Positions 33,973 to 42,680 of a stretch of DNA of 64,000 nucleotides are shown here, in pieces; the stretch's first letter is position 1, and every line of letters starts with the position of its first letter. The stretch is from positions 62,001 through 126,000 of the forward strand of contig JAFVSN010000052.1 of assembly GCA_017503735.1 (NCBI GenBank). The letters are read 5' to 3'. Under the pieces are notes generated by a model. It was not told where the DNA came from and ran no database searches. It worked only from the letters and a program-made list of their open reading frames with translations. The stretch is from Lachnospiraceae bacterium (lineage in GTDB: Bacteria > Bacillota > Clostridia > Lachnospirales > Lachnospiraceae). A program made the position numbers and the translations under genes.

Positions 33973-34002
33973 AGTGTACCACCGAATCTTTGGGGATGTC
34001 AA
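33973..34002 (-). promoter_or_regulatory. Promoter of the araC-type regulator
   Basis: On the minus strand TTGACA (33997-34002), 18-base spacer, TACACT (33973-33978) with an extended -10 TGG just upstream. Confidence 0.65.
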
Positions 34003-34003
34003 T

Positions 34004-34019
34004 GTGAAAATATTATCAC
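34004..34019. promoter_or_regulatory. Candidate operator between araC and the phosphorylase gene
   Basis: GTGAAAATATTATCAC is a 16-base palindrome with one mismatched pair. It abuts the araC -35 and lies about 50 bases upstream of the phosphorylase -35, a plausible position for a regulator serving both directions. Confidence 0.4.
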
Positions 34020-34068
34020 AATAATAGATTTGTACAATTTTTTGCTTTCTTTATCATAGAAAAAAAGT

Positions 34069-34097
34069 TAGACAATCTGTTGGGTTTGTGGTAAAAT
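34069..34097 (+). promoter_or_regulatory. Promoter of the cellobiose phosphorylase gene
   Basis: TAGACA (34069-34074), 17-base spacer, TAAAAT (34092-34097). The suboptimal -35 suits an activated promoter. The ATG is 73 bases downstream. Confidence 0.65.
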
Positions 34098-34170
34098 TTA
34101 GATAAGGTCTAGAAAACGAAAGAAAAATGTTTTATACAAGATTTATAAAGAGCCTGAAAGGAGCAGTTTT

Positions 34171-36567
34171 ATGCAGTACGGTTATTTTGATTTAGAGAAC
34201 AAAGAATACGTAATTACCAGACCGGATACCCCGGCACCGTGGGCAAACTATTTGGGAGACCCGGAGTACGGTGCAATTATTTCCAATAATGCGGCAGGGT
34301 ACAGCTTCATTAAATCCGGCGCAAACGGACGTATTACCCGTTATCGTTTTAACTCCGAGATGGCACTTCCGGGAAGATATATTTACATCAGAGATAATGA
34401 TGCGAAGGATTACTGGTCTGCTTCCTGGCAGCCGGTAGGTAAGCCGCTTGATACATACAAGAGTGAGTGTCGTCACGGTACCGCTTATACGGTAATGACC
34501 GCGGAGTACTTAGATATTAAGTCCGAAACGACTTACTATGTGCCGCAGGGGAAGACCTATGAAGTATGGAGAACAAAGATTACCAACAACTCCGGGAAGG
34601 ATAGAAATCTTTCTACTTTCGGTTTTGTTGAATTTACGAATGACAACAATTACGAGCAGGATCAGGTCAATTTACAGTATACGTTGTTTATTACCCGTAC
34701 CAGCTTCTCCGAGAATAAGATTTTGCAGCACATCAACGAGCATTTGGGTGCGGATGAGACCGGTTCCAATCACAGAGAGCGTTTCTTCGGTATGGTTGGT
34801 GCGGAGGTATCCGCATACAACGGAAGTCTCAATAACTTCGTGGGACCGTATAGAAGCTATTCCAATCCGATTGCGGTAGAGCGCGGTCAGTGTGATAATG
34901 TGATGAACTATTGTGGAAATTGCTGTGGTGCATTACAGTCCGATTTCGTGTTAAAGGCAGGAGAGACGAAAGAACTGGTTTACATCCTCGGGCAGAGAGA
35001 TGATGCAGCAGCAACCGCAATTTTGAACGAGTATAAGGCAACCGGCAAGGTAGATGCGGAAATCGCGGAGTTAAAGAGCTACTGGCACGGTCAGCTGGAT
35101 AATTTCAAGGTAACGACTCCGTCTGACGAGTTCAACAATATGCTTAATGTATGGAATGCTTACCAGTGTTTTATCACCTTTATCTGGTCCAGAGCAGCAT
35201 CCTTGATTTACTGCGGACTCAGAAACGGTTACGGTTATCGTGATACCGTACAGGATATTCAGGGTATTACCCATTTGAATCCGGAGATGGCGGGAGACAA
35301 GATTCGCTTCATGCTTTCCGCGCAGGTAGATAACGGTGGCGGACTTCCGCTTGTTAAGTTTAATCATAAGGCAGGGTTTGAGAATACACCGGACGATCCG
35401 GAATATGTTAGAGAGACCGGTCATCCGTCCTATCGTGCGGATGATGCCCTCTGGTTGTTCCCGACGGTGGTAAAGTACATCGGTGAAAGCGGCAATAAAG
35501 CATTTTTGGATGAGGTTATTGTCTATGCAAACGGTGGAGAGGATACGGTTTACGAGCATTTGAAGAGAGCGATTCAGTTCTCCATGGAGCGACTCGGGGA
35601 TCATGATATGCCGGCCGGTCTGCATGCAGACTGGAACGATTGCTTGCGCCTCGGTGCAAAGGGGGAATCCACGTTTGTTGCATTCCAGCTTTATTACGCC
35701 ATGTCTGAGCTTCGTAAGATGGCAGAGTACAAGAACGACACCGCTTATATCGCATATTTGGATGAAGTACAGGCAAAGCTTGGTGCGTCCTTAGAGAAGT
35801 GTTGGGATGAAGACAGATTTATCCGCGGAATTCGTGAGGACGGCGTAGTGGTTGGTGCAAAGAAGGACCCGGAGGCCAATATGTGGCTGAATCCGCAGAG
35901 CTGGAGTGTTATTTCCAAGTTTGCGGAAGGGGAACGTGCGGAGACCGCAATGAACAGCGTTTACGAGTTGTTAAATACACCGTACGGTGCAAAGTTGTTT
36001 GACCCGCCGTACAAAAAGCATTACTTTGAGGATGCACTCATGAAGGTTTATAACCTTGACGTTAAGGAGAACGGTGGTATTTTCTCCCAGACACAGGGTT
36101 GGTTAATTCTTGCGGAGTCCTTACTTGGTCATGGTAATCGTGCATTTGAGTACTTTATGGAGTGTGCACCGATTGCTATGAACGACAAGGCAGAGGTACG
36201 CGTTTGTGAACCGTATGTACATAGTCAGTTCACCGAGAGCAGATTGTCTCCGTACGAAGGCCGTGCACACGTACATTGGCTTACCGGTACCGCATCTACC
36301 GTTATGGTTGGTTGTGTAGAGGGTATCTGTGGTATGCGTCCGGACCTTGGCGGTCTTGTGATTGCTCCGTCCATTCCGTCTGCTTGGGATGGTTTCAAGA
36401 TTGAGAAAATGTTCCGTGGCAAGAAGTTAAACATCACCATTGATAACTCCGCACATGTAGAAAGCGGTGTAGTGAAGCTTATCGTAAACGGCGAAGAACT
36501 TGCCGGCGATTATCTTCCGGAAGAAAAGCTTGCCGATGTAAATAACATTGTGGCAGTGATGGGCTAA
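34171..36567 (+). CDS. Cellobiose phosphorylase, GH94
   Basis: A 798 aa glycoside phosphorylase that splits cellobiose with inorganic phosphate into glucose-1-phosphate and glucose in the cytosol, conserving energy. The N-terminal beta-sandwich (MQYGYFDLENKEYVITRPDT to ~290) is followed by the (alpha/alpha)6 barrel. The general acid Asp is in the HADWND motif (Asp490), and RNGYGYRDTVQDI and HVHWLTGTAS are visible further along. No signal peptide. The length fits cellobiose phosphorylase rather than the ~980 aa cellodextrin enzymes. No sugar transporter is adjacent, so cellobiose uptake must be encoded elsewhere. AAAGGAG precedes the start. Confidence 0.94.
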   Translation: MQYGYFDLENKEYVITRPDTPAPWANYLGDPEYGAIISNNAAGYSFIKSGANGRITRYRFNSEMALPGRYIYIRDNDAKDYWSASWQPVGKPLDTYKSECRHGTAYTVMTAEYLDIKSETTYYVPQGKTYEVWRTKITNNSGKDRNLSTFGFVEFTNDNNYEQDQVNLQYTLFITRTSFSENKILQHINEHLGADETGSNHRERFFGMVGAEVSAYNGSLNNFVGPYRSYSNPIAVERGQCDNVMNYCGNCCGALQSDFVLKAGETKELVYILGQRDDAAATAILNEYKATGKVDAEIAELKSYWHGQLDNFKVTTPSDEFNNMLNVWNAYQCFITFIWSRAASLIYCGLRNGYGYRDTVQDIQGITHLNPEMAGDKIRFMLSAQVDNGGGLPLVKFNHKAGFENTPDDPEYVRETGHPSYRADDALWLFPTVVKYIGESGNKAFLDEVIVYANGGEDTVYEHLKRAIQFSMERLGDHDMPAGLHADWNDCLRLGAKGESTFVAFQLYYAMSELRKMAEYKNDTAYIAYLDEVQAKLGASLEKCWDEDRFIRGIREDGVVVGAKKDPEANMWLNPQSWSVISKFAEGERAETAMNSVYELLNTPYGAKLFDPPYKKHYFEDALMKVYNLDVKENGGIFSQTQGWLILAESLLGHGNRAFEYFMECAPIAMNDKAEVRVCEPYVHSQFTESRLSPYEGRAHVHWLTGTASTVMVGCVEGICGMRPDLGGLVIAPSIPSAWDGFKIEKMFRGKKLNITIDNSAHVESGVVKLIVNGEELAGDYLPEEKLADVNNIVAVMG

Positions 36568-36602
36568 GTGTGGTATAGAAGAAATAAGAGTCATTTTTAC
36601 TG

Positions 36603-36632
36603 AAAGGGATCTCTGAAAAGAGGTCCCTTTTG
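36603..36632 (+). terminator. Terminator of the phosphorylase gene
   Basis: AAAGGGATCTCT (36603-36614) pairs with AGAGGTCCCTTT (36619-36630) around a GAAA tetraloop, with one G-T pair, ending in a short T run. Confidence 0.88.
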
Positions 36633-36651
36633 GATTGTCTTAAATTCATGC

Positions 36652-36680
36652 TTGACAGTCAACTGTATTACTGCTATAAT
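36652..36680 (+). promoter_or_regulatory. Consensus sigma-A promoter of the GntR-ABC operon
   Basis: Perfect TTGACA (36652-36657), 17-base spacer, perfect TATAAT (36675-36680). Such a strong promoter, overlapped by operators, is expected to be held down by repression. Confidence 0.92.
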
Positions 36681-36686
36681 ACGGTT
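36661..36686. promoter_or_regulatory. Palindromic operator 1 of the GntR regulator
   Basis: AACTGTATTA (36661-36670), 6-base spacer, TAATACGGTT (36677-36686). It fills the promoter spacer and covers the -10 box. The same pattern recurs 29 bases downstream with identical arms. Confidence 0.8.
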
Positions 36687-36689
36687 AGA

Positions 36690-36715
36690 AACTGTATTAT
36701 ATGAGTAATACGGTT
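36690..36715. promoter_or_regulatory. Palindromic operator 2 of the GntR regulator
   Basis: AACTGTATTA (36690-36699), 6-base spacer, TAATACGGTT (36706-36715). The arms are identical to operator 1 while the spacer differs, so selection acts on the arms. It covers the transcription start and early leader. Confidence 0.8.
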
Positions 36716-36766
36716 TGGAACACAGGAAATAGAAAGCAGAAATATAAGGAAAGGCAGGTGAGTCCC

Positions 36767-37138
36767 GTGGTTGTTGATTTTTCAGAATTAAAGCTGAATG
36801 AAGAAAGTCCTATTTATATGCAGATTGTCCGGTTTGTAAAGATTAAAATGATAAATCGACAGGTGCGGAACGGAGACGAGCTACCTTCCAGACGTGTATT
36901 GTCTGCTGTTCTGGAGGTAAATCCCAACACCATTCAAAAGGCATACCGTATGATGGAAGAGGAAGGGATTCTGGTGTCCTTTGCGGGGGCTAAAAGTTTA
37001 TTACAGTTTGATGAATGCTTGAGTGATAAATATCGGAAGGAGCTATTAGCGGTGGAAGCGGAAAAGTATATTGAAGAAGTCAAAAAAATGGGACTTACGG
37101 AGGAAGAGGCCGTGGAGTTAATAAAGGAAAACTGGTAG
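36767..37138 (+). CDS. GntR family (YtrA-like) transcriptional repressor
   Basis: A ~123 aa regulator made of a winged-helix domain (SPIYMQIVRFVKIKMINRQV, GDELPSRRVLSAVLEVNPNT, IQKAYRMMEEEGILV) and a short helical tail, the size of the YtrA subfamily that controls ABC transporter operons. The start is uncertain. GTG at 36767 has AAAGGCAGG and AGGTGA upstream; GTG at 36758 is an alternative; the ATG at 36701 lies inside operator 2 and lacks a ribosome binding site. It most likely represses its own operon through the two upstream palindromes. Confidence 0.9.
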   Translation: MVVDFSELKLNEESPIYMQIVRFVKIKMINRQVRNGDELPSRRVLSAVLEVNPNTIQKAYRMMEEEGILVSFAGAKSLLQFDECLSDKYRKELLAVEAEKYIEEVKKMGLTEEEAVELIKENW

Positions 37139-37156
37139 GAGGGAGTGAAAGAAGTT

Positions 37157-37942
37157 ATGAAAAAACATACGGAGGCGGAATTGAATAGCCGGAGGGCTTT
37201 CCTCGGAGTGCAGTTACGATATACTTTTTTGCCGGTTTTATGGCTGGTGGGAAGTATGGTTGTGATACTTACGGGACTGTTTTTATTTAACCTGTTTACA
37301 AAGGTTGTGAATCTACCCTATGAAGTGTCCTTTTTAGAACAGTTATATGCGTTGCCTTTGGCAGTAACTTTTTTTGTGTTGATTGTCGGAGTACAGATTA
37401 TTCTGACCGTCGGTTTTTCGAAAATGGAGAGGAATGTACTTGCTATGAAGCTTATTCCGCTTTCTAGGGAATTAAAAGACTTATTACAGTGGCAATATTC
37501 CTTTTGGGTGACTGCCGGTACCTTTTTGGTATATTTTCTTATGTTGTTTCTATGGCTTTTTTTGGAAAACATACTAATGCCCGGAACGGCGTACGGGGTA
37601 TCCGAATTGTATCCTGTGTTTTATCGGTTTACTCATTTGAACCGTGTATACCCAATCGGGTCGATATGGGGAATTCCGGTATTGCTTGGATGTGTGGGGG
37701 CAGTGTCCGTGATAGCACCTATATTTACGGGACGTTTATCGGAAGCGATAAGGACGGAAGTAGTATGGGGGATTTTGATTATTTCATCAAGTCTTTTCTA
37801 TTTTTTTGATCAGAGTAAACGCCCTGTTGGAGATTATGTTTTAATGGTGTTTGTGGGAAGTATTCATATCGGAAGAATTGTGATAGCGTATCGAAGGAGA
37901 CAAAAAAATGATAGAGCGGAAGTTGTGGAACGGATGGAATAA
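37157..37942 (+). CDS. ABC transporter membrane subunit (first of two), unrecognised family
   Basis: A ~261 aa integral membrane protein with about six hydrophobic helices and a charged C-terminus (YRRRQKNDRAEVVERME). It sits between the GntR repressor and the second membrane subunit, the layout of Ytr-type ABC operons, so it is most likely a permease subunit; no specific family signature is seen. The start may be the ATG at 37157 or the GTG at 37145, whose AGGAGG is very close. The 3' end overlaps the next gene by 35 bases. Confidence 0.7.
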   Translation: MKKHTEAELNSRRAFLGVQLRYTFLPVLWLVGSMVVILTGLFLFNLFTKVVNLPYEVSFLEQLYALPLAVTFFVLIVGVQIILTVGFSKMERNVLAMKLIPLSRELKDLLQWQYSFWVTAGTFLVYFLMLFLWLFLENILMPGTAYGVSELYPVFYRFTHLNRVYPIGSIWGIPVLLGCVGAVSVIAPIFTGRLSEAIRTEVVWGILIISSSLFYFFDQSKRPVGDYVLMVFVGSIHIGRIVIAYRRRQKNDRAEVVERME

Positions 37943-38711
37943 GCCGAAGGCGGTAAAATGGTTTTTTATAGGGTATCTTGTGCTACATATTGTTTTATGG
38001 TTAAAAGAAGCAGAGGCTTTTGAATATTATTCTGATTTCAGATATGTAAAATCGGAATCCGGACTTTGGGAAGACGAAGAAGGTTTTGTTGCTGTGCGGT
38101 GGGAAAATTTGACGGAGCTTTTACAGGAAACAAATTCCGTGATAGGGATTGTGTTTGCACTTATCTTTACGACCGGTGTCGCGATGGCAGTGGTACACAG
38201 GGAAAGCTTTTGGGATAATTGGGACTTTACTCTTCGAAGAATTCCACGTTATCGGGGAAAATATTTACTCAGTAAGGTGATAGCGGTATTGATTCCGGCA
38301 ATCGGTTTTTCGGTGTACTACGGAACCCAGTGGTTCTATCGGTTCCGGATGTATCAAGCAGACCTACAGAAGCAGTTTGATTATTTTGAGGAGAATCCTA
38401 AGCCCTACAAAATAAAGTATATCCCGATGGAAGCACAGGAGTTTTTTCGTACTGTTCCTATAAAACCTGTTTTAGAAATGACCATGTATTCGGTATTGAC
38501 GGCAATGGTACTGCTATTACTGAATCTTGCGGTCAGGAGAATGAAAAAAGATATTGTCGGATTTTGTGTGGCAATTGCCGGTTTGGTGGCGGTTGTACTT
38601 TTGTTTTCCGAAGTGTTTCCGATAGGAAGAATGGCAGAAATCGGGATTCTTTTCGGATGCATCGGTATTATAACGTTTTTTACCGTAAGGCATGTATATG
38701 TGAAGTTGTAA
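37908..38711 (+). CDS. ABC transporter membrane subunit (second of two), unrecognised family
   Basis: A 267 aa membrane protein. The first helix is near residues 17-35, followed by an extracytoplasmic region of about 40 residues, then helices near 78-100 and 120-140, a second soluble segment rich in Tyr and charged residues (~145-185), and three C-terminal helices. The topology resembles ABC-2-type permeases. CGAAGGAGAC lies before the ATG. The overlap with the previous gene suggests coupled translation and a heteromeric channel. Confidence 0.72.
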   Translation: MIERKLWNGWNKPKAVKWFFIGYLVLHIVLWLKEAEAFEYYSDFRYVKSESGLWEDEEGFVAVRWENLTELLQETNSVIGIVFALIFTTGVAMAVVHRESFWDNWDFTLRRIPRYRGKYLLSKVIAVLIPAIGFSVYYGTQWFYRFRMYQADLQKQFDYFEENPKPYKIKYIPMEAQEFFRTVPIKPVLEMTMYSVLTAMVLLLLNLAVRRMKKDIVGFCVAIAGLVAVVLLFSEVFPIGRMAEIGILFGCIGIITFFTVRHVYVKL

Positions 38712-38738
38712 TAGGGAAAAGAAGAAGGAGGACATAAA

Positions 38739-39476
38739 ATGTTAGAGATAAAAAGTGATAAACGGAGTTTTCCGGTACAGAATGATTTGTTTTTGGAACG
38801 GGTAACGTTACAGCCGGGAGAAATTGTGGCGCTTTTAGGGAGAAACGGATCGGGAAAAACGACACTGATCAGTGAAATTCTGGATATGAAGGGAAAACCG
38901 TTACATACGATTACGCTGGACGGAAAGCCGATATCTTATAAAAATCTTCACAGACTGGCACTGGGAAGCTGTGAACATACCTTTTTCAGGGAGTTTACGG
39001 TAGGAGAACAGAGAGAATTTTATGAGATGAATTTTCCGAATTTCCGAAAAGACCGATTCGAACTTTTAACGGAGTATTTTGAGATTTCCATGCACTGGAA
39101 GATAAAGGAACTTTCCGTGGGAGAAAAGAGTCAGGTAGAAACGGTGTTTGCATTATGTCAAGGAGCTGACTATATTTTCCTGGATGAGCCTTTTGCCAAT
39201 AACGATTTGTTTCACCGGAAGGATTTTTATAAGCTGCTGTTGGGTATTTTGGAAGAGACGGAATGCCTGATTATTGCGACTCATCTGGTGGAGGAAGTGG
39301 AATCAGTCATCGGAAGAGTGCTGTTGGTGGATCGGTTTGATGTAATCGCGGATGTCAGCATGGATGAAATGGAAGAGGACAACACGGATATGGTTGCATG
39401 GCTGAAAAAGAAGTTACATTATAACGAGGGAAAAGCTGCGGAGTTTATTCGGAGAATGGAGGAAGGAAATGTTTAA
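38739..39476 (+). CDS. ABC transporter ATP-binding protein of the GntR operon
   Basis: A 245 aa ATPase with Walker A GRNGSGKTT, a shortened signature LSVGEKSQV (the usual LSGGQ is changed to LSVGE), Walker B YIFLDEPFANND and switch IIATH. It is of the drug/ABC-2 export type and works with the two preceding membrane proteins. It overlaps the next gene by 8 bases. The position and repressor type suggest response to envelope stress or cell-wall-active compounds, by analogy with Bacillus ytr genes; this is inference. Confidence 0.9.
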   Translation: MLEIKSDKRSFPVQNDLFLERVTLQPGEIVALLGRNGSGKTTLISEILDMKGKPLHTITLDGKPISYKNLHRLALGSCEHTFFREFTVGEQREFYEMNFPNFRKDRFELLTEYFEISMHWKIKELSVGEKSQVETVFALCQGADYIFLDEPFANNDLFHRKDFYKLLLGILEETECLIIATHLVEEVESVIGRVLLVDRFDVIADVSMDEMEEDNTDMVAWLKKKLHYNEGKAAEFIRRMEEGNV

Positions 39477-40719
39477 AAAACGGATAAAGGCAGCGAGGTG
39501 TGTTTTTTTCACGATTGCTGCATTGACGGTTCTCGTTGCTGTTTTTTGGAAGATTTCCGAAAGGTACAGCAAAGGGACAGGGGAACTGAAGGTGTTTTTC
39601 GGAACCCCGGATACGGTAGACGGAGTGACGGTAAGCAGGAGGGTGTCGGAGCGTATCCGGCAGAGTGAAGGGGGAGATTATGAAACCGCAATCCGGCAAG
39701 CGGACCATTTTTATAAAACACGGACGGCACGGATTGCGGGAAATCAAACGGTTACTGATTTGGGGGTTCGGAAACAAAGGGAGTATGAACCGGAATATAG
39801 GCTTTTGTATGTATCTCTTCAGTCGGAAGCGGTGGAAAATCTGCTGACAACGTATTATGAACCGGATTTGTTGACAGTCCTGATAAAAGACAATCATCCG
39901 TTAAAGAGCCTTTCCTACGATTTGGTATGGTTATTGAATGAAGGGTATACCCCTCACATTGATAAGGAATATCGGATTGAGGATTATGTGACGTTTGATG
40001 AGGAGGATTGCTTTTGGTATTGTTCTGACCATGAGGGTGGCGGACGATTGGAATACCGTGACGGGACGGAAGGGGAAGGTCATGAAAGCGGCTGGATTGA
40101 AGCAGAGTTCATGCGTTTAAGTTATACCGGTATTGAGTTACAGGAACAAGAGGGAGCGTTCTATGCTTTTTTAGATATGGAACCGAAGTGTGAAGGAACA
40201 CCGGAATTTCATATGACGGTGAACAAAGGACTTTACCGGTTTGATACGGAAGGAACGGCAACCTGTGTACTTCCTATGGGAGAAAGAGCAGAAGGCTTTG
40301 CGTTTCTTTGGCTGATAAAAGAAGAAGAGGAGAACACCTTAGCAATTGTCGGGAAAAAAGAGAATTGTCTGGTGGCCTATTGTTACAACTTGGAGAGCGG
40401 TACAGTGGAGGAACGGGTGCTCTGGGATGGGAAAGAGAATCCGGAGGAGCTTGAAAAATGGTGGGAGACGGCAGAGTTTCACAGAACGGCGGATATGGAA
40501 ATAGAGGGAGAACGGAGTTATATTTGTTATACCGATGGCACATCCGAGTCCGGTGAAGTAAATGTAATTGTATTTGATTCCGGTGAAAGAATATTTTTTG
40601 GAGAGGTATTACCGGAGGAGCGGGAGTGTGAAACCCTTTCGGACTTTTCCATGAATACAAACGAGTTTTCGTGGATTTATACAGCAGTAGATAAGGTGGA
40701 GATAAGATTACCGGAATAA
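39469..40719 (+). CDS. Membrane-anchored extracytoplasmic protein of the GntR-ABC operon
   Basis: A 416 aa protein of no recognised family. An N-terminal signal-anchor helix (about residues 12-30, after KKRIKAAR) is followed by ~385 residues of extracytoplasmic sequence, rich in Glu and aromatic residues and apparently mostly beta, with segments like LYRFDTEGTATCVLP and EVNVIVFDSGERIFFGE that suggest repeated strands. There is no lipobox. It overlaps the ATPase gene, so it is translationally coupled to the transporter and is probably an accessory or sensing subunit. Confidence 0.7.
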   Translation: MFKKRIKAARCVFFTIAALTVLVAVFWKISERYSKGTGELKVFFGTPDTVDGVTVSRRVSERIRQSEGGDYETAIRQADHFYKTRTARIAGNQTVTDLGVRKQREYEPEYRLLYVSLQSEAVENLLTTYYEPDLLTVLIKDNHPLKSLSYDLVWLLNEGYTPHIDKEYRIEDYVTFDEEDCFWYCSDHEGGGRLEYRDGTEGEGHESGWIEAEFMRLSYTGIELQEQEGAFYAFLDMEPKCEGTPEFHMTVNKGLYRFDTEGTATCVLPMGERAEGFAFLWLIKEEEENTLAIVGKKENCLVAYCYNLESGTVEERVLWDGKENPEELEKWWETAEFHRTADMEIEGERSYICYTDGTSESGEVNVIVFDSGERIFFGEVLPEERECETLSDFSMNTNEFSWIYTAVDKVEIRLPE

Positions 40720-40744
40720 AACGGTTTGGAAATATGAAATAGAA

Positions 40745-40790
40745 AAAAGTCGGTGTTCCAACGAAAAGGTATCGTGGAATACCGACTTTT
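40745..40790. terminator. Bidirectional terminator between the ABC operon and aroE
   Basis: AAAAGTCGGTGTTCCA (40745-40760) pairs with TGGAATACCGACTTTT (40775-40790) with one mismatch/G-T pair. A-rich and T-rich flanks on either side allow use by both convergent genes. Confidence 0.85.
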
Positions 40791-40792
40791 GA

Positions 40793-41563
40793 TTAGTACA
40801 AGGTGTCCCGTATCATCTGTGTCACTTCTTCAATCTTATCTTCGTTAAGTTTTGTATCCAGAAAATACTGCACCGCATAAAAGGCTTGGGAAACCAGCAT
40901 CTCCAGACCGTTCACGGCAATAAGACCGCGGTCTTTTGCTTCCGCTAGAAGCCGGGTAACTTCCGGGTTGTAGATCAGGTCTACCACGGCGGTCAGATTC
41001 GGAAACGGGGTAAGCGGGGTCGGTGTTTCGCCCGTATGCGGATACATGCCCACCGGGCTGGTATTGATTAATACGGTGGCATCGGAGTGAAGGACATAGG
41101 CTTCTTCGTAGGAGCAGATGCCTTCACCGGAGGTACGTTTTACGATGACAATTTCCTTTGCGGAAAGGTCGGAAAGGACTGCAAGAACCGCCTTCGCCGC
41201 ACCGCCGTTGCCGAGAACCAGTACCTTTTCGCCGGTGATTTTAATGTTGTTTTTCTGTAGGGTATATAAAAATCCATAGTAGTCGGTGTTGTAGCCGTAA
41301 AGTGTTCCTTGTTTGTTCACGATGGTATTCACGGCACCGATTTTTTTTGCGCGGTCGTCCATTTCGTCTAAGAACGGAATGACGTCTTTTTTATACGGAA
41401 TGGTAACATTTACGGCAGCAAAGTCCTTTGCCGTCATAAACTCTTTTAATTCTTTTTTGGAAAGCTCGATTAAATCGTAGGTATAATCTGCCAATGCTTC
41501 ATGAATTTGCTTGGAATAGCTGTGGGATAAGTGTTCTCCCAAAAGACCGTAAATTTCTGCCAT
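40793..41563 (-). CDS. aroE: Shikimate dehydrogenase
   Basis: A 256 aa NADPH-dependent enzyme reducing 3-dehydroshikimate to shikimate for aromatic amino acid synthesis. The substrate-binding LLGEHLSHSYSKQIHEAL, catalytic Lys/Asp in NVTIPYKKDVI, nucleotide-binding VLVLGNGGAAKAVLAVL and INTSPVGMYPH are visible. The start at 41563 is supported by AAAGGAGA; a much longer in-frame extension upstream runs through the promoter and was rejected. No other shikimate gene is near, so it is a single-gene unit. Confidence 0.94.
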   Translation of the reverse strand: MAEIYGLLGEHLSHSYSKQIHEALADYTYDLIELSKKELKEFMTAKDFAAVNVTIPYKKDVIPFLDEMDDRAKKIGAVNTIVNKQGTLYGYNTDYYGFLYTLQKNNIKITGEKVLVLGNGGAAKAVLAVLSDLSAKEIVIVKRTSGEGICSYEEAYVLHSDATVLINTSPVGMYPHTGETPTPLTPFPNLTAVVDLIYNPEVTRLLAEAKDRGLIAVNGLEMLVSQAFYAVQYFLDTKLNEDKIEEVTQMIRDTLY

Positions 41564-41599
41564 ATTTTTGTCTCCTTTAGTGAGCATCCCTGCGGAGCA

Positions 41600-41633
41600 T
41601 GTACCGGACATGAGACATCTCGTGTTCGGTACA
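41600..41633. promoter_or_regulatory. Palindrome at the aroE transcription start
   Basis: TGTACCGGACATGAG (41600-41614) and CTCGTGTTCGGTACA (41619-41633) form a 15-bp inverted repeat with two imperfect pairs and a 4-base centre. It begins one base from the aroE -10 box, where a repressor would block aroE; a leader hairpin is the alternative. Confidence 0.6.
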
Positions 41634-41634
41634 T

Positions 41635-41663
41635 AGTATAACATAGCAAAAAATAGTTTGCAA
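41635..41663 (-). promoter_or_regulatory. Sigma-A promoter of aroE
   Basis: On the minus strand TTGCAA (41658-41663), 17-base spacer, TATACT (41635-41640). Confidence 0.75.
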
Positions 41664-41692
41664 GACAGGCTGTCATATTTTACAGCCTGTCT
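41663..41692. repeat. Perfect 11-bp inverted repeat in the aroE-spoIIIA intergenic region
   Basis: AGACAGGCTGT (41663-41673) and ACAGCCTGTCT (41682-41692) with an 8-base centre. No T run on either strand, so not a terminator. It abuts the aroE -35, and its centre contains the spoIIIA -35-like element. Confidence 0.7.
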
Positions 41693-41700
41693 CATATATT
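41673..41700 (+). promoter_or_regulatory. Sigma-E-type sporulation promoter of spoIIIA
   Basis: TCATATT (41673-41679), 13-base spacer, CATATATT (41693-41700). This fits the Bacillus sigma-E pattern (-35 near KMATATT, -10 near CATACANT) closely, and the operon it precedes is a classical sigma-E target. The start codon is 50 bases downstream. Confidence 0.65.
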
Positions 41701-41750
41701 GAGGTAAGGCGGTAAACAAGCTGTACTCAGACAAAAAGGGAGATGGTGTA

Positions 41751-42680
41751 GTGGGAATTCTTGAAATGTTACCGGAGCCGGTGCGGTATCGGATTGCATC
41801 GGGAAAGTTGGATGTAAAAACTTTGCGGGAAATACGGTTGCGGATCGGAAGAGGGCTTATGATAGAAACCGCGGATGGGGAATGTTGGTTGGGAAAAGAG
41901 GGCGGTTTTGTAAGAAAAGAGCGGGATGCCTACCGGGTGACCAAGGAAGATGTGAAGGTCGCATTGGAACTTTTGACGGGGTATTCGGTGTATGCGTTCG
42001 AAGAGGAATTACGGCAGGGGTATTTTACTGTGGAAGGCGGTCACCGGATCGGTGTGGCCGGACAGACGGTAACGGAAGACGGCAGGGTGCTTCGGTTACG
42101 TCATATTTCTTTTTTGAATCTTCGAATTGCCCATGAATGTATCGGATGCAGTAAAGAGTTGTTCCGTAGGTTATTCGGGGACGGTACGTTTTATCATACG
42201 TTGCTGTTTGCACCGACCGGTTGCGGAAAGACCACCTTTTTGCGGGATTTGATACGGCTGATTTCAGAAGCGGGCAAGCGAGTGGGGGTAGCGGATGAGC
42301 GTTCCGAACTTGCGGCATGCTATCAGGGAGCTCCGCAACACGATATGGGTCCGAGAACGGATGTGATGGATGGGTGTTCAAAAGCGGAAGCAATGCGGAT
42401 GTTATTGCGTTCCATGACACCGGAGATCCTTGTGGCGGATGAAATCGGATTGCGGGAAGATGCGGAGGCGATTCGTGTTGCGGCAGGAAGCGGATGCAAA
42501 GTGGTAGCCAGTGCCCATGGAGGTACTTTGGAGGAATTACAAAAAAATCCGATGCTTGCGGAGTTATGGGAGGAACGACGATTCGAACGATATGTGCGAT
42601 TGGAAAAAAGAGGAACCGAATTTTTGATCGGAGCAATTTATGACGGGAACGGAAAGGAAATGAAGGAATGGAGTACATAA
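41751..42680 (+). CDS. spoIIIAA: Stage III sporulation protein AA (ATPase)
   Basis: A 309 aa secretion-ATPase-like protein of the mother cell that powers the SpoIIIA-SpoIIQ channel between mother cell and forespore. Walker A is FAPTGCGKTTFLRDL, Walker B ILVADEIG, and the VADERSELAACYQG block is typical. The GTG start is behind AAAGGGAGATGG. It is the first of eight genes in the usual AA-AH order and overlaps spoIIIAB by 13 bases. Confidence 0.95.
   Translation: MGILEMLPEPVRYRIASGKLDVKTLREIRLRIGRGLMIETADGECWLGKEGGFVRKERDAYRVTKEDVKVALELLTGYSVYAFEEELRQGYFTVEGGHRIGVAGQTVTEDGRVLRLRHISFLNLRIAHECIGCSKELFRRLFGDGTFYHTLLFAPTGCGKTTFLRDLIRLISEAGKRVGVADERSELAACYQGAPQHDMGPRTDVMDGCSKAEAMRMLLRSMTPEILVADEIGLREDAEAIRVAAGSGCKVVASAHGGTLEELQKNPMLAELWEERRFERYVRLEKRGTEFLIGAIYDGNGKEMKEWST

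Follow-up and report, generated by a model that had tools for sequence, protein, structure and literature searches.

We asked how a YtrA-like GntR regulator of a Lachnospiraceae bacterium might control the ABC transporter operon that it heads, where two long palindromes sit at the promoter, and how far this arrangement extends among related regulators. YtrA-type repressors are frequent in Firmicutes. Taken alone, the case studied here would be an ordinary autorepressed YtrA operon; what is new is that operator and -10 box are fused throughout a clade, together with the tandem site and an arginine signature in the regulator.

Two palindromes at the promoter

In the window, the whole 64,000-nucleotide stretch of DNA that was analysed, two copies of AACTGTATTA-N6-TAATACGGTT are present on the forward strand with zero mismatches: operator 1 at 36661-36686, with CTGCTA between its arms, and operator 2 at 36690-36715, with TATGAG. 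Their start-to-start distance is 29 bp, as a sequence-only reading of this DNA had noticed. The same reading called them identical palindromic operators. The arms of the two window copies are indeed the same, but each copy falls short of a perfect palindrome at one position (AACTGTATTA against AACCGTATTA), and identical arms are not the rule: only two of seven same-genus orthologs have them, and TGATACGGTT stands in the second copy of five of the seven.

The promoter consists of a -35 box, TTGACA (36652-36657, forward strand), and a -10 box, TATAAT (36675-36680, forward strand), separated by 17 bp. It is the perfect 12/12 consensus that had been claimed, and the best among 14 promoter-like sites in 34000-41800. 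Operator 1 covers the spacer and the -10 box, which lies within it and is overlapped by its right arm. Assuming the usual discriminator of 6-7 nt, we infer a transcription start at about 36687. Operator 2 lies just 3' of this point, beginning about 3 bp downstream; it is not centred there, and the earlier placement of the second site on the transcription start needs correcting. An intrinsic-terminator-like hairpin at 36600-36633 (forward strand; 15 pairs, T-rich tail) follows the upstream GH94 gene and separates it from the five-gene operon.

The regulator gene, gntR (36767-37138, forward strand; 123 aa), probably starts at the GTG at 36767 behind AAGGAAAGGCAGGTGAG, judging by alignment with orthologs, and not at the ATG at 36701, which falls inside operator 2; an ATG or GTG with a similar ribosome site is found at the position aligned to 36767 in seven of seven orthologs. 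Its N-terminal winged helix-turn-helix (HTH) matches PF00392 over residues 17-73 (E 1.7e-08; 34.5 bits against a cut-off of 27). The match ends at residue 73 of 123, consistent with the short C-terminal domain of about 50 aa that is given for the subfamily in PMC4494728. The operator is a long palindrome with distant GT and AC (TGTATTA-N6-TAATACG), and its core is common to relatives. Two further features recur below: an Arg-Arg pair at the start of the HTH (Arg42-Arg43, in the motif PSRR) and an operator right arm that overlaps the -10 box.

Allowing up to three mismatches, the palindrome occurs in the window at these two places only, each on both strands, and 100 shuffles of the window gave a mean of 0.01 matches. 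At the same tolerance, no further palindrome was found in the window's genome assembly (3.08 Mb, 58 contigs, 94.6% complete), where a control pattern read backwards matched one place. The looser pattern TGTATTA-N6-TAATACA, with up to two mismatches, matched 23 places in this genome against 12 for its backwards control; besides the places of the window and of a paralog, two of the 23 were inspected, one lying before an ABC ATPase, where it looks like the paralog's target, and one at an unrelated gene start.

Both palindromes, 29 bp apart, and the promoter are kept in all seven same-genus orthologs (at least 85% identity; the window included, six from other genomes), and the remaining upstream region differs among the seven. 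Such an ortholog is present in six of nine other same-genus genomes; G001 and G002 have distant matches only, and G008 has a 35% relative. The six named near relatives are MAGs of Lachnospiraceae, and the titles of four point to ruminants. The sequence-only reading had made its case depend on conservation of the palindrome beside orthologous GntR genes, and this was found in seven of seven same-genus loci and, among the best-scoring matches, in 24 of the 29 regulators of the nearest subclade. The sites are real and well conserved.

A two-palindrome pattern with its spacing left free between 22 and 52 bp matched eight of 392 genomes of the order, against one for the backwards control. The spacing is 29 bp in five of the eight, 28 in one and 27 in two, and in the seven genomes besides the window's the pair precedes a YtrA-like GntR, its promoter having the geometry seen here. 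Across 391 genomes of the class, the strict tandem pattern had two matches, both in the order (the window's genome and one from the order scan); this count understates the spread, as the Bacilli lie outside the class and one genome within it, G454, carries a more degenerate pair that was missed and later found in another set.

Operator register and an arginine signature among YtrA-like regulators

We compared the operators of YtrA-like GntRs more widely using a first set of 176 distinct regulators with upstream DNA, drawn from searches and 60 fetched stretches, with five loci that repeat the window left out and 30 hits merged because another hit had the same first 110 residues (206 to 176). 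An operator was counted if its N6 core had at least 11 of 14 matches; other centres, such as that of the paralog L167, count as none. All sets consist of the best-scoring matches listed, and the proportions found in them do not represent the subfamily as a whole. "Tandem" denotes a spacing of 26-29 bp by definition, so that spacing was left free to vary only in the scan of 392 genomes and in the count for the nearest subclade.

Among these matches, the 29 nearest GntRs comprise 24 with two operators, all 26-29 bp apart, and five with one; shuffled upstream regions gave two operators in 0 of 580. The other 147 comprise 77 with one operator, 48 with none and 22 with two or three, two operators being found in about 0.1% of shuffled regions. 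Eighteen spacings among these 147 are of 27-29 bp, and 17 of them are in Bacilli, including Peribacillus, Heyndrickxia, Bacillus, Priestia, Virgibacillus, Cohnella and Paenibacillus. Four Bacilli loci (L057, L061, L065 and L077) have a third palindrome, 35-39 bp beyond the second.

The position of the first operator is fixed. In 42 of 42 tandem loci its centre lies 7 bp upstream of where the -10 box ends (register -7), with its right arm overlapping the box, and in seven of seven new tandem loci the register is the same, which makes 49 of 49 measured. The second operator of the 42 loci has its centre 19-22 bp downstream of this box. All 42 have TTGAC at 17-18 bp, and this box is the independent part of the promoter call, as a TATAAT within an operator arm can be picked up by the caller. 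In other clades, single operators are mostly found at +2, with the left arm over the -10 box, or at -1, +7, +10 and +15.

Lying within the first transcribed bases, operator 2 could in principle act mainly as a 5'-terminal mRNA hairpin that stabilises or regulates the transcript, and not as a DNA site. A transcript from about 36687 would open with a 12-pair hairpin, and the operator 2 mismatches of the 42 loci include 52 that keep RNA pairing (G-U on the sense strand) against 26 A-C. The leader fold is, however, ordinary given its base composition (z -1.32, with 19 of 200 shuffles folding equally well), the untranscribed operator 1 is built alike and its mismatches lean the same way (23 against 17), and in operator 2, besides the 26 A-C, 53 of 420 arm pairs would pair in neither strand's RNA. 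The mismatch counts of both operators come from related loci and do not decide the RNA question; overall, we regard such a role as very unlikely.

Regulators of the -7 group share PSRR at the start of the HTH, where others most often have PSVR, or else other letters, and the outer arm reads AA[G/C]TGTA in the PSRR group against TA[G/T]TGTA elsewhere. In the account of Suvorova et al. 2015 (PMC4494728), Val and Arg are the usual residues at positions 27-28; matching the numbering by its wording, the Arg-Arg site would correspond to these positions. In all, 264 distinct YtrA-like GntRs were compared, 65 with PSRR and 199 without. Among these best-scoring matches, the 65 PSRR loci comprise 50 tandem at 26-29 bp, 12 with a single operator at -7 and three with neither (L011, L012 and L176), and the 199 others include no tandem at 26-29 bp and no operator at -7; 107 of them have one in some other place and 92 lack one. 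Five of the 199 and two PSRR loci carry two sites spaced differently. Of the 52 PSRR loci in these sets with at least two palindromes, 50 have a pair at 26-29 bp. One locus, L067, proved tandem once 220 bp upstream were read, and L175 represents only part of a tandem locus.

We arrived at a rule, by which regulators with PSRR have the -7 register and others lack it, before the later loci were inspected. These came from a search of 398 genomes of the phylum with a profile built from clade members, and numbered 89 (29 from the search, 60 fetched), or 88 after one duplicate was dropped. Among these best-scoring matches, a tandem at 26-29 bp is present in seven of seven loci with PSRR and in 0 of 81 without, 47 of which have no such operator and 34 one at another register. 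The seven positives are not independent cases, since they are best-scoring hits and four come from one family.

We built two trees, both resting on 125 alignment columns. The first contained 131 proteins from rows of at least 80 bits and at least 100 aa, which excluded 45 of the 176; it placed all 41 tandem rows and the 12 with a single operator at -7 in one group of 57 (SH-aLRT 98), whose other four rows have different labels, and the remaining 74 rows have neither feature. For the second, of 88 rows, five near-identical same-genus rows were dropped, 36 rows of other registers served as outgroup and no rows without an operator were taken in; it split 52 against 36 (bootstrap 100, SH-aLRT 96). 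In these sequence trees, the PSRR proteins form a supported clade.

A single origin of the tandem state was rejected by the AU test (p 8e-35); only the wider -7/PSRR group holds together. Because the tandem rows alone are not one clade, the second operator was gained or lost more than once within the group. In the six of the 12 single-site loci with room before the gene for offsets up to 29 bp and more, no remnant of a second site was seen, the best scores of 6-8 of 14 being the commonest background values; the other six have a gene start within about 46 bp, which makes this comparison partial or impossible there.

The sites might instead belong to another regulator, for example a GntR paralog of the same genome, which contains eight further GntR matches at E 0.001. 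Upstream of one such paralog, L167 (G000:C28), stands a palindrome with the arms AACTGTACT and AGTACAGTT; it shares the outer AACTGTA letters of the window's operators, and its centre is longer by one base, for which reason the N6 rule overlooked it; some cross-binding may therefore occur. At another paralog, a site differs from the core by a single mismatch (C10:70342). Against this, the operator described here, in its register, lies upstream of none of the six paralogs examined out of the eight, and the tandem layout tracks the PSRR signature of the neighbouring GntR itself. Ownership by another regulator thus seems scarcely probable, and from the sequence comparisons the two palindromes very probably belong to the adjacent GntR.

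A second operator style of the subfamily is seen upstream of YtrA-like GntRs of other clades (L018, L030, L031 and similar loci), where nested half-sites 8 bp apart surround one N6 palindrome, as in TGTATTATTGTATTA-N6-TAATACAgTAATACA of L018. They are comparable to the additional half-sites described in Suvorova et al. 2015 (PMC4494728). A similar nested operator occurs in the window's genome at G000:C2:32707-32726 (L172) and G000:C10:70342-70361 (L125), one before an ABC ATPase and the other before a paralogous GntR; these are probably two targets of one regulator.

The transporter operon and its relatives

The genes that follow gntR on the forward strand encode two permease-like membrane proteins without a Pfam family (37157-37942, with homologs of 38-57% in same-genus loci, and 37908-38711, with homologs of 29-40%), an ABC transporter ATPase (38739-39476; PF00005, E 3e-17) and a 416-aa protein (39469-40719) with one N-terminal helix, a beta-rich remainder and no Pfam or NCBIfam family. 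The ATPase is the fourth gene of the operon, which we delimit by spacing and overlaps. The PF00392 and PF00005 matches bear out the original description of a YtrA-type GntR with an ABC operon.

Across the same genomes, the membrane proteins of 37157-38711 diverge far faster (29-57% identity) than the GntR (85-92%) or the ATPase (74-90%), as if an outer partner or substrate changes. In two same-genus genomes the operon is enlarged: in L042 and L043, gntR is separated from the first of the membrane protein genes by additional genes, one for a membrane protein and one for a protein with a single helix, and the one-helix protein of L042 matches part of the 416-aa protein (E 6e-07).

In seven of seven Bacilli loci examined, the genes after gntR include a permease-like one, whose product has six to eight hydrophobic stretches, and one for a protein of about 400 aa with a single such stretch; an ABC ATPase comes directly after GntR in six of the seven, and none was found in L065. 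The predicted structure of the Bacilli protein of about 400 aa has a mean pLDDT of 78.7, and its best Foldseek match has an E of 5.7e-08, with low TM-scores that allow a fold class only. The matches are proteins that we take to be beta-propellers. The window's 416-aa protein resembles this one in its position at the end of the operon, its single N-terminal helix and its beta strands; profile comparison did not show homology between the two, and the model of the 416-aa protein (mean pLDDT 50.5) is too poor for a fold comparison. A search for the Walker A motif detected a downstream gene with such a motif in 34 of the 65 PSRR loci, a few of them perhaps spurious frames; among the other 31, 26 have less than 3.5 kb of sequence and five have enough sequence and no Walker A match.

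How the two sites may act, and known systems

The best explanation of these observations, and in our view a highly probable one, is that the GntR represses its own five-gene ABC operon through the two palindromes, in a layout inherited within the PSRR clade. The palindromes would be operators of the GntR encoded just downstream. A first dimer on operator 1, over the spacer and the -10 box, would block entry of RNA polymerase; a second on operator 2, within the first 25 or so transcribed bases, would hinder open-complex formation or promoter escape; and an inducer would release both. Binding and the direction of control are modelled on PmtR, YtrA and YtrASa, which are repressors of their own operons, and simultaneous occupancy by two dimers and induction are likewise expected rather than observed. 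YtrASa, which acts on its own operon, binds with Hill coefficients of 2.3 and 2.6 (PMC6746942), which makes cooperativity in the subfamily plausible. YtrA and PmtR are reported to respond to cell-wall antibiotics or membrane-active peptides (PMC8060467, PMC5080381), and by analogy cell-wall-active compounds are a reasonable guess for the inducer.

Given that the first site keeps one register and that 12 loci have this site alone, it probably does the basic work, which the second would refine. The mechanism does not require a second site, since 12 of the 65 PSRR loci manage with operator 1 alone.

The spacing of 29 bp had been taken as nearly three helical turns, placing both sites on the same face of the DNA. 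At 10.5 bp per turn it is 2.76 turns, and relatives have 26, 27 and 28 bp, which deviate more; over 26-29 bp (2.5-2.8 turns), the same-face geometry is neither attained nor conserved, and we rejected it. The lower spacing limit equals the 26-bp length of the operator, which points to side-by-side packing, and adjacency of two 26-bp sites fits better than a same-face arrangement.

A tetramer or dimer of dimers with a fixed ruler could also bind both sites at once, as does BusR, a GntR-family protein that reads two sites at a fixed distance of 22 bp in same-face geometry (PMC8517857). The narrowness of the spacing would suit such a ruler, with 26-29 bp in 50 of the 52 PSRR loci with several palindromes and 27-29 bp in all eight genomes of the free-spacing scan. 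It varies nonetheless by 3 bp, or about 100 degrees of rotation, and twelve PSRR regulators have a single site. BusR, moreover, is a tetramer with RCK_C (PMC8517857), whereas a family search of the 123-aa GntR gives the HTH domain only, with no second domain and neither the coiled coil nor the RCK_C of BusR. We therefore consider a BusR-like ruler unlikely and retain autorepression by adjacent dimers.

Bacillus subtilis YtrA (ytrGABCDEF, ywoBCD) is likewise a YtrA-subfamily GntR in a repressed ABC operon with a GTA...TAC palindrome; its operator is given as AGTGTA-13bp-TACACT, and YtrBCDEF has two ATPases (PMC8060467, citing Salzberg 2011). At the window locus, in contrast, 12 bp separate TGTA from TACG and the operator is present in two promoter-fused copies, and we found one ATPase, a 416-aa membrane-anchored protein and one target operon; the comparison with YtrA, as that source presents it, is one of operator and gene set. 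PmtR of Staphylococcus aureus is a YtrA-type autorepressor of an ABC exporter whose footprint overlaps the start site (PMC5080381). The window GntR is not its ortholog by NCBIfam NF047563 (41.1 bits against a cut-off of 200), and PmtR is described as protecting one 36-bp stretch (PMC5080381), unlike the two 26-bp palindromes here.

The YtrA regulons of Suvorova et al. 2015 belong to the same subfamily and have long palindromes with distant GT and AC, mostly at single ABC operons. That article counts 294 sites for 283 operons, with very few double or triple sites, and notes extra half-sites near operators; the passages considered here describe no tandem class, no register fused to the -10 box and no Arg-Arg clade (PMC4494728). 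We found no tandem YtrA operator class in the literature searched, which is weak evidence of absence with most subscription journals and supplements outside its reach.

Putting these observations together, we tentatively propose, with somewhat less than even confidence in the whole, that the PSRR regulators of Clostridia and Bacilli make up a regulatory lineage of their own in the YtrA subfamily, in which recognition sequence and -10 box have fused. A second dimer, 26-29 bp downstream on a rotated face and in side-by-side contact with the first, would be an add-on that tightens repression; the extra arginine would read the changed outer arm (AA[G/C]TGTA, not TA[G/T]TGTA); and the Bacilli operons would combine the ABC transporter and a beta-propeller anchored in the membrane, which may report substrate. 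A residue signature of this kind would make the operator register, and usually a second operator, predictable from the protein sequence. Promoter architecture would thereby become predictable in uncultured gut bacteria, and the group would offer a simple system for asking why selection adds a second operator.
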